Origin: a virus
IMG/VR virus record: IMGVR_UViG_3300022752_000350
Coordinates: 1-25,613 of that record
Reading direction: 5' to 3' (one strand)
DNA length: 25,613 bases
The position numbers and the translations under genes are program-made. The stretch's first letter is position 1, and the number at the start of each line of letters is the position of its first letter. The notes beneath the pieces were generated by a model, which searched no databases, had not been told where the DNA came from, and worked only from the letters and a program-made list of their open reading frames with translations. This document shows, in pieces, positions 6,682 to 18,737 of this stretch.

Positions 6682-7926
6682 ATGGCTAATCAATTGCTAA
6701 CCATCTCTAAGATCACCAACGAAGCGTTGATGGTCTTGGAAAACGAATTGACTTTCACATCGGAAGTCGACCGCAACTATGACGACCAATTCGCTGTCGT
6801 AGGTGCAAAAATCGGTAACACCGTTAACGTCCGTAGACCTGGTCGTTTCATCGGTACTACTGGCCCTGCTTTGAACGTTGAAGATTTCAACGAGACAAGC
6901 GTTCCTGTAACTTTGAGTACACAGTTCCACGTTGATACACAGTTCACTACACAAGACTTGGCTTTGTCCTTGGATATGTTTAGCGACCGCGTGTTGAAGC
7001 CTGCAGTGGCGGCTATTGCCAACAAGATCGACCGTGACGGTTTGGTCATGGCTAAAAACAACACCGCCAACATCGTTGGTACTGCTGGCACACCACCCAC
7101 AGGTTTGATTACATACCTGACCGCAGCCGCTTACCTTGATGCCGAGGGCGCACCACGCGATGGTCGCCGTTCATGTATCGTTGAACCCTTTACATCTGCC
7201 ACTATTGTGGACAGCTTGAAAGGTCTGTTTGTGCCTCAAGAAGCCATTGGCGAGCAGTATCGCAAGGGCTTGATGGGTCGTGACAGCGCAGGCATGAACT
7301 GGAAGATGGATCAGAACGTTGTGTCTCAGACATTCGGTTCTTATTCAACCGCTGTTCTGTCTTGCAACACTTCAACTGCAACAGGCTTCTTGACTTCTGG
7401 TTGGGCATCTACTTCAACAATCGCATTGTCAGCTACCACTGCCAGCGCATCGTTGCAACAAGGTGACGTTATCCAGATCGCCAATGTCTATGCGGTCAAC
7501 CCACAAAACCGTCAGGCTTATGGTTCAAACAAACTGCGTAACTTTGTTGTGACTGCGGCTGCGACTGTTTCTACTTCTGGTACTACATCTGTGACCGTCA
7601 GCCCTGCTGTCATCACTGCTGGTCAGTTCCAGAACGTGTCTGTCACATCACCTGGCGCATCTGCTGTTACACCTTTCAACAACACTGGTACTGTTTCCCC
7701 ACAAAACATCATCATGCACCGCAATGCGTTCTGTTTGGCAGTAGCCGATTTGGAATTGCCAGAAGGTGTGCATTTTGCTGGTCGTGCAAGCGATAAGGAA
7801 ATCGGTCTGTCAATGCGTGTGGTTCGTCAATACACCATTAACAACGATTCAATTCCTACACGTTTGGATGTGTTGTATGGCTGGGCCCCGCTGTACCCTG
7901 AGTTGGCTTGCCGCGTTGCCGCCTAA
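6682..7926 (+). CDS. Major capsid protein, P22 gp5-like
   Basis: The 414-residue protein is a P22 coat-type HK97-fold capsid protein (P22 gp5 has 430 residues). The N-terminus MANQLLTISKITNEALMVLE and the VDRNYDDQF segment are hallmarks of this family, as is a late NIIMHRNAFCLAVADLELPE segment near residue 345. A beta-rich stretch at about residues 225-335, with NVYAVNPQNRQAYG, corresponds to the inserted I-domain of P22 coat. A strong GGAG site precedes the ATG. Codon use here is the most G/C-favouring in the window, consistent with high expression. Confidence 0.95.
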   Translation: MANQLLTISKITNEALMVLENELTFTSEVDRNYDDQFAVVGAKIGNTVNVRRPGRFIGTTGPALNVEDFNETSVPVTLSTQFHVDTQFTTQDLALSLDMFSDRVLKPAVAAIANKIDRDGLVMAKNNTANIVGTAGTPPTGLITYLTAAAYLDAEGAPRDGRRSCIVEPFTSATIVDSLKGLFVPQEAIGEQYRKGLMGRDSAGMNWKMDQNVVSQTFGSYSTAVLSCNTSTATGFLTSGWASTSTIALSATTASASLQQGDVIQIANVYAVNPQNRQAYGSNKLRNFVVTAAATVSTSGTTSVTVSPAVITAGQFQNVSVTSPGASAVTPFNNTGTVSPQNIIMHRNAFCLAVADLELPEGVHFAGRASDKEIGLSMRVVRQYTINNDSIPTRLDVLYGWAPLYPELACRVAA

Positions 7927-7953
7927 TCATTAACTCTTTTTAAGGAAAAAATC

Positions 7954-8331
7954 ATGGCAAATCCAGGACCAGCATCAGCGATTACTCAAGAATCATTTGC
8001 ACCAATGACCAACGTGGTCAAAGGTGGCGTGTTTTCTTTGAGTTTGACTCCAGCAGCCGTAGCAACCATTACCACCGCCGCCCAAAACTTTGCCAGCACT
8101 GGCATTGGCTTGGTTGTTGGTGATTATGTTTCTGTGGCATTTAACGGTGCTCAGACAGCAGGCGTAGGCGTTCTTGACGCTTATGTATCTGCCGCTGACC
8201 AGTTGACCGTTCGCTTTGTAAACCCCACTGCTGCAAGCGTTACGCCTGCCGCTGGTACTTACTTAGTGTCTGTACAACGTCCAAGCACTTTGACCGCCAC
8301 TAACGCTACATCACCATTGCTTTCTTGGTAA
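7954..8331 (+). CDS. Small head decoration-like protein, copy A
   Basis: This 125-residue Ala/Thr/Val-rich beta protein directly follows the coat gene with a strong AAGGA site. It lacks Cys, a signal peptide and a membrane segment. The C-terminal half (LTVRF-N, then SVTPAAGTYL, about residues 90-112) is closely matched in the gene at 8421, so the two are paralogues. The position just after coat suggests a capsid decoration or surface protein; this is inference from position and composition. The gene is the last before a strong terminator. Confidence 0.8.
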   Translation: MANPGPASAITQESFAPMTNVVKGGVFSLSLTPAAVATITTAAQNFASTGIGLVVGDYVSVAFNGAQTAGVGVLDAYVSAADQLTVRFVNPTAASVTPAAGTYLVSVQRPSTLTATNATSPLLSW

Positions 8332-8347
8332 TAGGTGTGAAGTAGAG

Positions 8348-8386
8348 AAAAGCCACTCTCAAAAGGGGTGGCTTTTTCTATTTTTA
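8348..8386 (+). terminator. Rho-independent terminator after capsid genes
   Basis: AAAAGCCAC (8348-8356) pairs with GTGGCTTTT (8368-8376), and the stem is extended inward by G-T and C-G pairs around a CAAAA-type loop. TTTTT at 8373-8377 and TTTTT at 8381-8385 follow. This is the clearest intrinsic terminator in the window. It separates the coat/decoration unit from the paralogous gene and the fibre cassette. Confidence 0.88.
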
Positions 8387-8420
8387 AAGTACAATCAATT
8401 CATTCTGTAAAGGAATCATC

Positions 8421-8747
8421 ATGGCATCTACCACCGTCACCCGTGGAAATTCGCACGAAACTTTCTACATCTCTATTAACATCACACCAACAGCGGTTAC
8501 TGGTCAAACCACTAGCAATCAAACTTTCAGTGTGCCAGGCTTGTTAACCACCGACATTATCATTGCACAAGGTTACATCACTAACCAAACAAGTGGCGTG
8601 TTTATTGTTGAAGCTGATTGTATTGCTGCAAACGTTTTGACTGTTCAATTTGGTAACTTCACAACTGGCTCAGTCACTCCTGCGGCTGGTTTGTATGAGT
8701 TTCAAATTGTGCGTCTTGAAGGCCCAGCACCAACAACGGCAGGCTAA
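8421..8747 (+). CDS. Small head decoration-like protein, copy B
   Basis: This 108-residue beta-rich protein is a paralogue of the 7954 gene. It shares the block LTVQF-N, then GSVTPAAGLYEFQIVR, and a similar spacing of hydrophobic strands before it. The N-terminus (MASTTVTRGNSHETFYISIN) differs. An AAAGGA site precedes the ATG. There is one Cys near residue 69 and no membrane segment. A virion surface role is likely from position and paralogy but unproven. It is the first gene after the terminator and reaches almost to the start of the next gene. Confidence 0.8.
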   Translation: MASTTVTRGNSHETFYISINITPTAVTGQTTSNQTFSVPGLLTTDIIIAQGYITNQTSGVFIVEADCIAANVLTVQFGNFTTGSVTPAAGLYEFQIVRLEGPAPTTAG

Positions 8748-8749
8748 TC

Positions 8750-9094
8750 ATGGCAGGCTCAACCGTTCAAAGAAACGCTGGTTCAACGGTTGCGTTGTCA
8801 GTCACTAGCACGGCTCATGCGGCTGTGTTGATTGATGATTCAACCAATGACCAGATTAACTACACTGCGTTTTTGAACACTGGCGCAGCGCCTATTGCTG
8901 TGAAATGGGGTATTGCCGATCCTGGCGCACCCGCTTTTCCAGTAGATGGCACAAATGGCGATTTTGTCTTAGCTGCTGGCATGACAACACCGCTAATTTT
9001 GGCTACGCCTACAACACCATACTATCTGACAGCAAAAAGCAATTCAGGCACTGCTGGCATTTTGTATGTAACGCCTGCCGCCGATCAATCCTAA
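8750..9094 (+). CDS. Hypothetical virion surface protein
   Basis: I do not recognise this 114-residue beta-rich protein with certainty. It is Ala/Thr/Pro-rich, has no Cys and contains VKWGIADPGAPAFPVDGTNG in its middle (about residues 51-70) and a TPYYLTAKSNSGTAGILYVT end. That pattern of a small beta-sandwich exposing Gly/Thr loops is common in phage head-surface and fibre-accessory proteins. It begins two bases after the preceding stop and ends nine bases before the large fibre gene, so it is part of the same cluster. Confidence 0.75.
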   Translation: MAGSTVQRNAGSTVALSVTSTAHAAVLIDDSTNDQINYTAFLNTGAAPIAVKWGIADPGAPAFPVDGTNGDFVLAAGMTTPLILATPTTPYYLTAKSNSGTAGILYVTPAADQS

Positions 9095-15206: not shown

Positions 15207-16178
15207 ATGGCTCAACCAATTGACATTATCAGCAGGGCATTAAAGGATATTGGCGCATTAGAAGCTGGTGAAACTCCGACCGCTGATGCCACGCAAGACG
15301 CGTTTGATATGCTGAACGATATGCTCGATCAGTGGTCAAATGAGGATATGATGGTTTTTTATAAGACCGAAATCGTATTCCCCATTACGTCAGGTCAGAC
15401 GCAATACACGATTGGACCAGGCGGGCAAATAGGCGCAAACTTTGTCGGCAGCATTTCTGGCAACGTCTTAACAGTCACTTCTATTAACTCAGGCGCTATT
15501 GCTTTGGGGCAAACCCTAAGCGGTTCTGGTATTTCATCGGGTACAACCATAACAGGCTTTGCTACTGGTGCTGGAGGTAACGTCAATGAAATCGGAACGT
15601 ACACAGTCAACATCTCCCAAACCGTTGCATCAACAACAATCAGCGCCTATTACCAGCGACCCCTCGTTATCAGTTCTGCTTTTGTTCGTATCAATACTAA
15701 TTCAAATGGTACTCCTATTGTTAATGGTGGTTTAGATTACCCTGTCGCAATACTGGCGGTAGAAGATTACGAAATGATCGGACTAAAAACACTGTCTGGT
15801 CCTTGGCCTAAAGCCTTGTATTACCAACCAACCGAAACGCTTGGCAATATTTTTGTTTGGCCTAACCCTAGTCAGGGCGAAATGCACTTATTTGCGGACA
15901 CAATTTTCCGCAGATACGACTCAATCAATGACACAATTGTTCTGCCACAGGCTTATGCAATGGCGGCTAGATGGTGTTTGGCTGAACGTTTGATGCCTAT
16001 GTACGGCAAGAATAGCCAAGTGCAAATAGCAATGATTCAAGGCTTTGCGGCGCAAGCAAAGGCTACGATTAAGCGCACAAATATGCGTCCTGTTCAAACT
16101 TCTAGGTATCCTGATTCTTTGTTAGTCGGAAAAGCTAAAGACGCTGGCTGGATTCTCAGCGGTGGATTTGCGAGGTAA
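15207..16178 (+). CDS. P22 gp4-like head completion protein with insert
   Basis: The start is ATG 15207, with AGGA six bases before it. The 323-residue protein is a P22 gp4-type adaptor that binds the portal after packaging. Its N-terminus has the family helix [15 protein letters not shown] and [11 protein letters not shown], then a strand region ending YTIGPGG. At residues 79-147 an extra beta module is inserted ([36 protein letters not shown]). The family sequence resumes at [12 protein letters not shown], with the [19 protein letters not shown] helix later. P22 gp4 has 166 residues; this form is larger. The start follows the fibre partners closely. Confidence 0.9.
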
Positions 16179-16181
16179 TAA

Positions 16182-18038
16182 ATGGCAGATTTTGGATTTG
16201 TCGGACCAAGTTACACAGCACAGTCAATCTATGCTGACGCGCAGGAGTGCATCAATTTCTACCCTGAGATTGACCCACTCAAACAGCCTGGCGACCGTGG
16301 CGTGGTGGCTTTGTACCCTACGCCTGGCCTGACTCCAAAAATTGTTTTTCAAAACTCTCAAGAAGTCAGGGGATTACGCACTGTTTCTGGCGGTGGTCAG
16401 TTAATTTGTGTGGTGGGACAATATGTTTATGCTTTGACTTCCACACTTACGCCTACATTAGTTGGTCAGTTAAACACCACCACAGGACGCGTAGACATCA
16501 CTGATAACGGAATTAATGTCTATATTGTGGATGGTTCAAATCGTTACACATGGCGCATTTCAAGCCCATCTAGCGCAGTTTTTACAGGCTCAATATCAGG
16601 CACAACCTTAACTGTCACTGCTGTCACCAACGGCACAATTGGCATAAATCAATCATTGTTTGGCATAGGTATATTGCCAGAAACCGTGATAACTGCTTTG
16701 GGAACTGGAACAGGTGGTGTTGGAACTTACACCATAAACCTGACGCAAGCTGTTGCCAGTAAAGCAATGAATTCAGTTAATGTTGGCGCAGTGGTTACAG
16801 GATCAATTTCAGGCACAACTTTAACTGTGACTGCAGTTACATCTGGTACGTTATATGTTGGTCAAACTATCCAAGGCTCAACAGTCACGGCAAACACCAT
16901 GATTACCGCCCTTGGAACAGGCACAGGTGGCGCTGGAACATACACGGTCAGCACATCACAAACAGTCACATCTAGAACGCTGTACGGGCTTAATTTTGCC
17001 TATTTGCCAAGCACAGATGGTGCTTTTACAGGTGGCACAACAGTTGACATTGTGGACAATTATTTTGTGTATAGCCGCCAAAGTAGCCAACAATGGGGCG
17101 CATCAAACGTGCTTTCACCTATTTCGATAGGTACGTCATTTGGCTCAAAAGATGGTGCGCCTGATAATTTGGTGGCGCTGATTGTTGACCATCGTGAAGT
17201 TTATTTGTTGGGTGAAGCATCGTCAGAGGTATGGGTTGACGTGGGGGCGGCACAGTTTCCGTTCCAACGCATACCTGGCACATCTACTCAACACGGTATT
17301 GCAGCCACTTTTTCCGTTGCTAGAGTTGGTAATTCATTTGCTTATTTGTCCCAAAATAACCGTGGACAAGGCGAAATTATGATGATGAATGGATATATTC
17401 CACAAAGAATATCCAATCATGCTGTTGAAAATACCCTTGTAAATCAAACCATTAATGACGCAATTGCGTGGACTTATCAGCTTGAGGGACATGAAATTTA
17501 TGTGATTTCATTCCCAACCATTAACCTGACTTGGGCTTATGACATTGCTTCTGGTATGTGGCATAAATGGTTGTATACCAATAATTTAGGTCAATATGAA
17601 CGTCATCGAGGTAATTGCTGTGCTGTTTTCCAAGGAATGGTAATGGTGGGCGATTATTCAAATGGCACACTATATGAATTGGATAAAGCCAATTACACCG
17701 ATTCTGGTCAAAATGTCCGCAGATTACGCAGAGCACCACATTTGACAGCAGACTTACAACGGCAATATTTTGATGAATTGCAGATTCAGTTTCAGCCAGG
17801 CGTTGGAACAACCAACGTAGACAATCCTCAAGCTATGCTGAGATGGTCAAACGATGGCGGGTCAACTTGGTCAAATGAATATTGGGTTTCTATTGGCAAA
17901 CAAGGTAAATACAAAAATCGTGCCATTTGGCGTAGATTGGGGTATGCAAGGGACAGAATCTTTGAAGTTTCTGTGTCTGACCCAATCAATGCGGTAATTG
18001 TTTCTGCTAATCTCAAAGGAAGTGCGGGGGATAACTGA
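16182..18038 (+). CDS. P22 gp10-like packaged-DNA stabilisation protein with inserts
   Basis: The 618-residue protein matches the P22 gp10 tail-hub family. It begins [20 protein letters not shown] and NFYPEI, then LYPTPGL, and later shows [23 protein letters not shown] and [12 protein letters not shown]. Two beta modules are inserted at residues about 134-200 and 204-268; both open [15 protein letters not shown] and close with GTYT and a Q-V-S segment. Without them the protein would be about 483 residues, close to the 472 of P22 gp10. It would sit at the portal vertex below gp4. It begins three bases after the gp4-like stop and ends in a TGATG overlap. Confidence 0.93.
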
Positions 18039-18274
18039 TGGCAACAGGACTATATGGTGCAAGCCAAACCAACCCTTACCCGCAAGCTGAGTTTTTGGAT
18101 GGGCAAACTAAGCGCCCCACAAGGGCATGGCAACAATTCTTTTTGAATCTACTTAACTTTTCCAGTGCGTCTACGGCTACTGCGGGTTCAGCAACATTAC
18201 CGTCTAACCCTGTTGGGTTTATAAATGTTACGGTAAATGGTCAAAATTTCAAAGTTCCTTATTACAATCAGTAA
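18038..18274 (+). CDS. Small tail-associated protein
   Basis: This 78-residue protein begins in a TGATG overlap with the gp10-like stop. It has SQTNPYPQAEFLDGQTKRPT near the front, then AWQQFFLNLLNF, an Ala/Ser/Thr link and a short strand pair ending FKVPYYNQ. A small protein with an NPYPQAEFLD/KRP, W--FF--L order is often found directly after gp10-like genes in P22-like phages. It may take the place of the tail-needle gene, as nothing needle-like is seen, but it is far shorter than P22 gp26 (233 residues). The role is inferred from gene order. Confidence 0.75.
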   Translation: MATGLYGASQTNPYPQAEFLDGQTKRPTRAWQQFFLNLLNFSSASTATAGSATLPSNPVGFINVTVNGQNFKVPYYNQ

Positions 18275-18275
18275 C

Positions 18276-18737
18276 ATGGAACTTACAAAAATCAAAATCC
18301 CAACACGCGAGCAAATTGAAAAATTGCAACGTGAAATGTCGCAAATGCCTGTTGCGGATTTGCAAATGGCATCTGACGCAATGCACACCGAACATTATTT
18401 TCATGGCGGTATGTATGCACGAAAGTTAAGCCGCCCAGCGGGTTGTTTAATTGTTGGTAAGGTGCATAAACAAGATCATTATTTTTTGTGCGCCAAAGGT
18501 GAAATTATTGCTTGGTCAGAAAAGGGAATGGTGCATCTTCATGCTGGTGACATTATTGAATCCAAGCCTGGCACAAAGCGCGTAACGTTAGCTGTGACTG
18601 ATGCAATTGGCATCACTTTTCATAAGACTGACAAAACCGATTTAGATGAAATTGAAAAAGAAATGATTGAATCTGATGAACTTGCGTTGTTTGATTCCTC
18701 AAACAATTTAAAAGTTTTAGAAATTAAAGGGGAATAA
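18276..18737 (+). CDS. Cupin-like protein
   Basis: ATG 18276 lies just after the previous stop; the longer frame from ATG 18237 adds only residues shadowing that gene. The 153-residue protein starts with a helix (IPTREQIEKLQREMSQMP). A beta-barrel-like part follows, with HTEHYFHGGMYARKLSRPAG, GKVHKQDHYFLCAKGEI, HLHAGDIIESKPGTKR and ITFHKTDKTDLDEIEKE. The H-x4-H-x6-GE and later P-G pattern resembles a cupin metal site, but enzyme activity is unproven. The gene sits where P22 carries gp14, so a virion or assembly role is plausible. Confidence 0.8.
   Translation: MELTKIKIPTREQIEKLQREMSQMPVADLQMASDAMHTEHYFHGGMYARKLSRPAGCLIVGKVHKQDHYFLCAKGEIIAWSEKGMVHLHAGDIIESKPGTKRVTLAVTDAIGITFHKTDKTDLDEIEKEMIESDELALFDSSNNLKVLEIKGE

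Follow-up and report, generated by a model that had tools for sequence, protein, structure and literature searches.

Three copies of one beta module in the gp4-like adaptor and gp10-like nozzle proteins of a P22-like virus

The gene block and its three module copies

The stretch of DNA analysed here (the window) is the whole 25,613 nucleotides of IMG/VR virus record IMGVR_UViG_3300022752_000350, and it contains a P22-like head and tail block with a portal protein (phrog_156), a major head protein (phrog_283) and several fibre-like genes, after which come, in order, the genes of an adaptor like gp4, of a stabilisation protein like gp10 and of a DNA-ejection protein. Three consecutive small proteins (125, 108 and 114 aa) follow the major head protein at 7954-9094; the first two have weak or no family matches, and the three may be decoration proteins. 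The adaptor gene (15207..16178, plus strand) encodes a 323-aa remote homologue of P22 gp4, which scores above the Pfam cut-off for SU10_adaptor (PF24175, E 2.8e-9), reaches the P22 gp4 chains in a profile search (E ~2e-5) and, as an AlphaFold2 model, matches podophage adaptors in Foldseek with E-values down to 1e-7. By profile and by helix-bundle fold the protein belongs with the P22 gp4/SU10-type adaptors. The next gene (16182..18038, plus strand) encodes a 618-aa stabilisation or nozzle protein of the head closure Hc3 type (phrog_578, E 3e-103; PDB matches 7eeq, 9vyg and 7sg7). P22 gp10 itself (8tvr) is matched by a module-free relative of this protein, with residues 44-464 aligned, and judged by these alignments the gp10-like core is homologous to P22 gp10/head closure Hc3 over its full extent. 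Comparison with relatives places a tail-fibre anchor-like protein of ~78 aa (18038..18274, plus strand; missed with an 80-aa open reading frame cut-off) directly downstream, beginning at the gp10 stop codon, and it is followed by a separate short tail fibre or adhesin-like protein (18276..18737, plus strand; phrog_12032, E 2e-35).

A segment of 65-69 residues occurs once in the beta domain of the gp4-like protein (approximately 15432..15650) and twice in tandem, with a 71-codon period, in the gp10-like protein (copy a, 16575..16766; copy b, 16788..16982; all plus strand). Pairwise local alignments of the three copies score 163, 173 and 205, at 54-61% identity, and because 500 shuffles gave no score above 82, this likeness is not a matter of chance. 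A search across the record found no further copy beyond these three. The original prediction, made from the sequence of the window, spoke of one module inserted three times; the three copies do lie where it placed them, but there are two insertion sites, the gp10 pair being a tandem array at a single one. Its description of the differences between the gp10 copies as mainly silent or mild is roughly right, in that 18 of 65 codons are identical, 21 synonymous and 12 conservative, with 14 of other kinds (DNA identity 62.6%).

Insertion sites and history of the modules

Homologues that lack the module exist for both proteins. The gp4 homologues of Rhodoferax phage P26218 and of a Manatee Spring phage are 237-codon frames without it, and in both the motif 'YTIGPxGN' continues almost directly into 'RP' at the module site. 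Among gp10 homologues, modules are lacking in all distant ones and in one clade of closer relatives with frames of 488-531 codons; these read through the very site at which the aligned module-bearing homologues carry their modules, and one of them aligns across it to P22 gp10 (8tvr, 472 aa) with a short gap only. Removal of the two modules (~140 aa) leaves the gp10-like protein of the window at ~478 aa, about the size of the P22 chain, as had been anticipated. Since both sites are read through in homologues that lack the modules, P22 gp10 among them, the modules are, on these alignments, inserts at two sites and separable from both core folds. The original prediction had likewise taken the segments to be a module outside either core fold, with the conserved family sequence resuming beyond it, and both statements are borne out, the former by the common predicted strands of all copies as well as by the module-free homologues, the latter on both sides of the modules in the homologue alignments; its alternative, that the same segments occur in every gp4 and gp10 homologue, does not describe what we observe.

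In a tree of the modules, the gp4, gp10 a and gp10 b copies form separate groups by position, and identity between genomes at the same position (0.66-0.72) is higher than between copies within a genome (0.50-0.54). The copies are as such orthologous by position and old, not three recent jumps, in keeping with the prediction that the gp10 copies are old, a and b each clustering by position across genomes. A search for recent transfer saw none, cross-family DNA identity of modules peaking at ~76%. The proposal of a spreading surface module therefore holds in part: the unit occurs in many unrelated virion proteins across viruses (see below), but it is not actively spreading in this lineage, where its copies are old and orthologous by position.

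In a gp10 core tree with the modules removed, module presence requires one change, the 74 rows that bear modules grouping with support 99 and 8 module-free rows forming their sister group. This tree alone cannot separate gain from loss; its deep outgroup is module-free, and most simply the gp10 pair would have been gained once, by one clade. Modules in gp4 occur in both groups, with and without gp10 modules, so the gp4 copy is older than the gp10 pair. Records of 28 relatives hold modules in frames sized as gp4 and gp10, mostly as 1+0 or 1+2, and of the 160 distinct gp4 sequences sampled first, 156 keep at least one module, while one of the four exceptions is truncated where its contig ends. 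These relatives were taken best-scoring first and many loci overlap or are near-copies, and the counts are accordingly not population frequencies. Some gp10 homologues later came to 3-4 copies, and copy number at this single site thus spans 0 to 4. In several 3-4-copy members a different beta unit, of a 'GGTGY' type, is lodged in the second gp10 module; we note a unit of this kind ('TVLSQTITTGGTGYNVNDVITVLGG...') in L063, L066, L074, L077, L082, L203 and L221. Where other gp4 proteins have the module, that of Xanthomonas phage PBR31 (L236:5258-5503) has an insert of divergent sequence, which may represent an earlier state of the module. Roughly 20 relatives, and L232 at 7416-7994, have a gene of ~200 codons between gp4 and gp10 (annotated as an endonuclease in MW202674) that is absent from the window; considered as a possible driver, it shows no link with the modules, the gap occurring with 0, 2 and 3 gp10 modules.

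Predicted fold, placement and spread of the module

AlphaFold2 modelling of the gp10 tandem pair from an alignment of 63 sequences (pLDDT 97.2, pTM 0.87) gives strands at residues 2-21, 27-30, 38-43 and 51-70 for the first module and at 73-92, 99-101, 109-114 and 122-139 for the second, while in the model of the gp4-like protein (pLDDT 82) the module strands are 76-95, 103-105, 114-118 and 130-148. The predicted order of long, short, short and long strands is common to all three copies, which is to say that the three segments are predicted to fold alike. Because the last strand of module a is joined to the first strand of module b by a two-residue turn, the tandem copies probably adjoin each other within a single sheet. 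In the gp4-like model, helices 4-14 and 26-45 precede a beta domain (53-232) that contains the module, and further helices follow; Foldseek retrieves with it the adaptors of cyanophage A4, KHP30, N4, SU10 and T7. In the adaptors of T7 and SU10 a beta domain serves as the fibre dock (PMC6702177, PMC9509320), and by its place between the helices the beta domain of the gp4-like protein would be the counterpart of this dock. The gp10 site corresponds, as far as can be judged from sequence, to a turn between strands 3 and 4 of approximately the second propeller blade. Given this architecture of the host domains, and the T7 and SU10 literature, the modules likely sit on the outside of the vertex.

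Searched against the PDB, the tandem model gives one confident match, chain 1 of 8eci (Foldseek probability 1.00, 36% identity over 69 columns, with a weak E-value of 0.13), and the gp4-like model also retrieves this chain (probability 0.97, E 0.10, again weak). The PDB names it 'Decoration protein', a protein of 124-126 aa from Arthrobacter phage Bridgette, in which dimeric capsid cement proteins surround the penton (PMC13033339). Since the E-values are weak, membership of the module in the decoration-protein fold is likely and not proven; the earlier suggestion of a decorating role nonetheless gains from a match made by both models. At the level of sequence, the divergent PBR31 insert finds the same chain with a weak score (E 9). 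When the modules were used as profiles against the PDB, antibody and designed-repeat noise was all that came back, and the antibody matches are short and weak (E 0.05 or worse) or, in Foldseek, of probability 0.05 or less. Pfam scans of 44 module members found no convincing model (scattered weak matches, e.g. FeoA at E 0.016), including no Ig, FN3 or Big_2-type match and no carbohydrate-binding module (CBM) or lectin family. NCBIfam matched neither of the two window proteins nor the tandem pair, and in PHROGs only parts of phrog_21413 and phrog_38233 correspond to the module.

The module is by no means confined to gp4 and gp10. Profile searches returned at least 600 rows from virus contigs and 61 loci from bacterial genome contigs, and the recurrence of the module across unrelated virion proteins, for which such a search had been proposed, is evident in them. 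Among the matches listed, 119 distinct module-bearing proteins other than gp4 and gp10 fall into 58 clusters, an upper estimate of the number of families, with the clustering partial and some members fragments. Named virion hosts include Baseplate_J, a T4 gp8-type baseplate wedge, a T7-type fibre, neck terminator PF23961, tail tubular phrog_394 and a phage cement protein family (PF22758/phrog_2122; L278, L044), and the module is found in tail fibres, tip and pectate-lyase-like proteins as well; others are a GDSL lipase and a secreted FG-GAP protein of Bacteroidota. In several (e.g. L080, L237, L259, L355) the module interrupts the profile of the host family. L259, a contig of a Sulfuritalea metagenome-assembled genome, has a phage-like region in which four or more adjacent frames carry modules, a neck terminator among them. 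Among predicted structures in BFVD, a protein named HK97 major capsid protein matches the module at 65% identity, and two collagen-repeat proteins of the giant virus Indivirus ILV1 (A0A1V0SCQ2, A0A1V0SDM6) match the module model at 35-42% identity.

The modules are under strong purifying selection, with dN/dS ~0.09 against 0.06-0.07 in the cores, rough values given that dS is near saturation. In composition they are rich in Thr (22%), Gly (17%) and Ser (11.5%), while Asp, Glu, Lys and Arg together make up 2.6% and Trp and His 0.1% each, and on these figures the module resembles neither a typical lectin nor an adhesin that diversifies.

Possible roles and comparison with known systems

Our preferred explanation, to which we assign a probability of roughly 0.55, is that an unnamed, reused beta module of the decoration type extends the fibre-dock domain of the adaptor and the propeller of the nozzle, strengthening the vertex or seating fibres; the fold and the history are supported, and it is the function that we infer. 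Two long strands (~20 residues) would form the ends of the module, with two short strands between them, and the first and last strands are probably neighbours, which would allow the unit to be inserted in a host beta turn without disturbance. One copy would then stand in the adaptor's outward-facing beta domain, in the place of the fibre dock of T7/SU10-type adaptors, and the tandem pair in a turn between strands of the gp10 beta-propeller. Twelve gp4 copies and six gp10 pairs would together build a beta-rich outer collar, and such a collar would enlarge the contact surface of adaptor, nozzle and fibre, presumably as structural cement or a seat for fibres and not as a binder of receptors or glycans. 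The presence of the module in cement-family proteins and in a predicted HK97 major capsid protein speaks for this explanation, as do the strong purifying selection and the shortened anchor gene found downstream of module-bearing gp10 genes (see below). 'Virion cement' is not the sole use of the module, as non-virion bacterial proteins carry it too.

A narrower possibility, which we hold tentatively, is that the modules serve specifically as a dock for tail fibres, with the short anchor and the adjacent short tail fibre held jointly by the gp4 copy and the gp10 pair. The T7 fibre is held between the fibre docks of adaptor and nozzle (PMC6702177), and a fibre-anchor domain lies directly downstream of gp10, with a protein of the short-tail-fibre family after it. 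This domain is a stand-alone frame of ~80 codons in 111 of 117 module-bearing loci, whereas it is fused to a longer protein in 105 of the 106 gp10 module-free loci with an anchor found (short in 1). The supposition that module-bearing gp10 genes have no anchor gene downstream proved to stem from a length threshold of 100 aa; the anchor is present and short. However, seven loci break the rule, six of them module-bearing with a fused, long anchor, and the gp4 module occurs with both anchor types. Because the association (among loci of which many overlap or are near-copies) amounts essentially to one evolutionary transition in the tree, perhaps shared by descent, a tie between anchor shortening and the gp10 modules is a lead and not proof. 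Two module-bearing loci with a long anchor, L133 and L174, sit close to the root of the module clade, hinting that the modules preceded anchor shortening.

It is rather unlikely that the modules are near-neutral, tolerated insertions with no specific job, spread by illegitimate recombination among repeat-rich structural genes. The very diverse host proteins, which share no function, and the 0 to 4 copies at one site would suit such a history, but a dN/dS close to that of the cores and the retention of at least one copy in nearly all distinct gp4 sequences (156/160) argue for constraint. Binding of host-surface glycans, a role suggested in the original prediction, finds no support and is in our estimation very improbable: the module does also occur in tail fibres, tip and pectate-lyase-like proteins, and carbohydrate-binding modules decorate the virions of lactococcal 936 phages (PMC6669499), but Trp, His, Asp, Glu, Arg and Lys are all but absent from the module, its dN/dS is low, and neither a lectin or CBM fold nor a corresponding sequence match is found among the leading matches.

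A broader and more speculative reading would make of the module a general-purpose virion 'clip'. A single unnamed fold would then be employed in two ways, on its own to decorate capsids and inserted into adaptors, nozzles, baseplates, fibres, cement proteins and capsid proteins, while bacteria and a giant virus would have similar units; by adding strands side by side it would build larger surfaces through tandem duplication. That virion proteins acquire small beta domains is known, yet this unit is common and is matched by no model in Pfam or NCBIfam, and here it lies inside the DNA-exit machinery, where inserts should be least tolerated. The ordered series from a gp4 copy to a gp10 pair to 3-4 copies among close relatives is a natural experiment on the gain of portal-vertex surface, in which relatives with and without modules can be compared directly. 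Definition of a module family would also clean annotation, as unrelated proteins match phrog_21413 and phrog_38233 only via the module.

Among known systems, the T7 gp11 and SU10 gp11 adaptors resemble the gp4-like model in having a beta domain in the same place between helices, and by their chain lengths (~190-230 aa) would differ from it in having no module. The nozzles of SU10 and T7 have domains inserted among the propeller blades (PMC6702177, PMC9509320). In P22 gp10, T7 gp12 and SU10 gp17 the inserted domain, where present, is unlike the module, and P22 gp10 has no insert at the site used by the gp10-like protein. Phage Ig-like accessory domains are small beta domains found on many unrelated virion proteins, whose core folds are independent of them. 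Compared with these domains (Fraser et al. 2006, as cited in PMC10684548), the module is likewise a small beta addition that occurs in many unrelated virion proteins and that the core fold can do without, but it differs in strand pattern and in lying inside conserved folds. The Bridgette decoration protein has in its matched part a core of the kind 'G-x-x-I-x-x-A/G-G-I-x-A-G-T-x-I-T-A', similar to that of the module; the former, however, is a free-standing capsid protein with an extra C-terminal part, whereas the module described here is an internal insert in proteins of the portal vertex.
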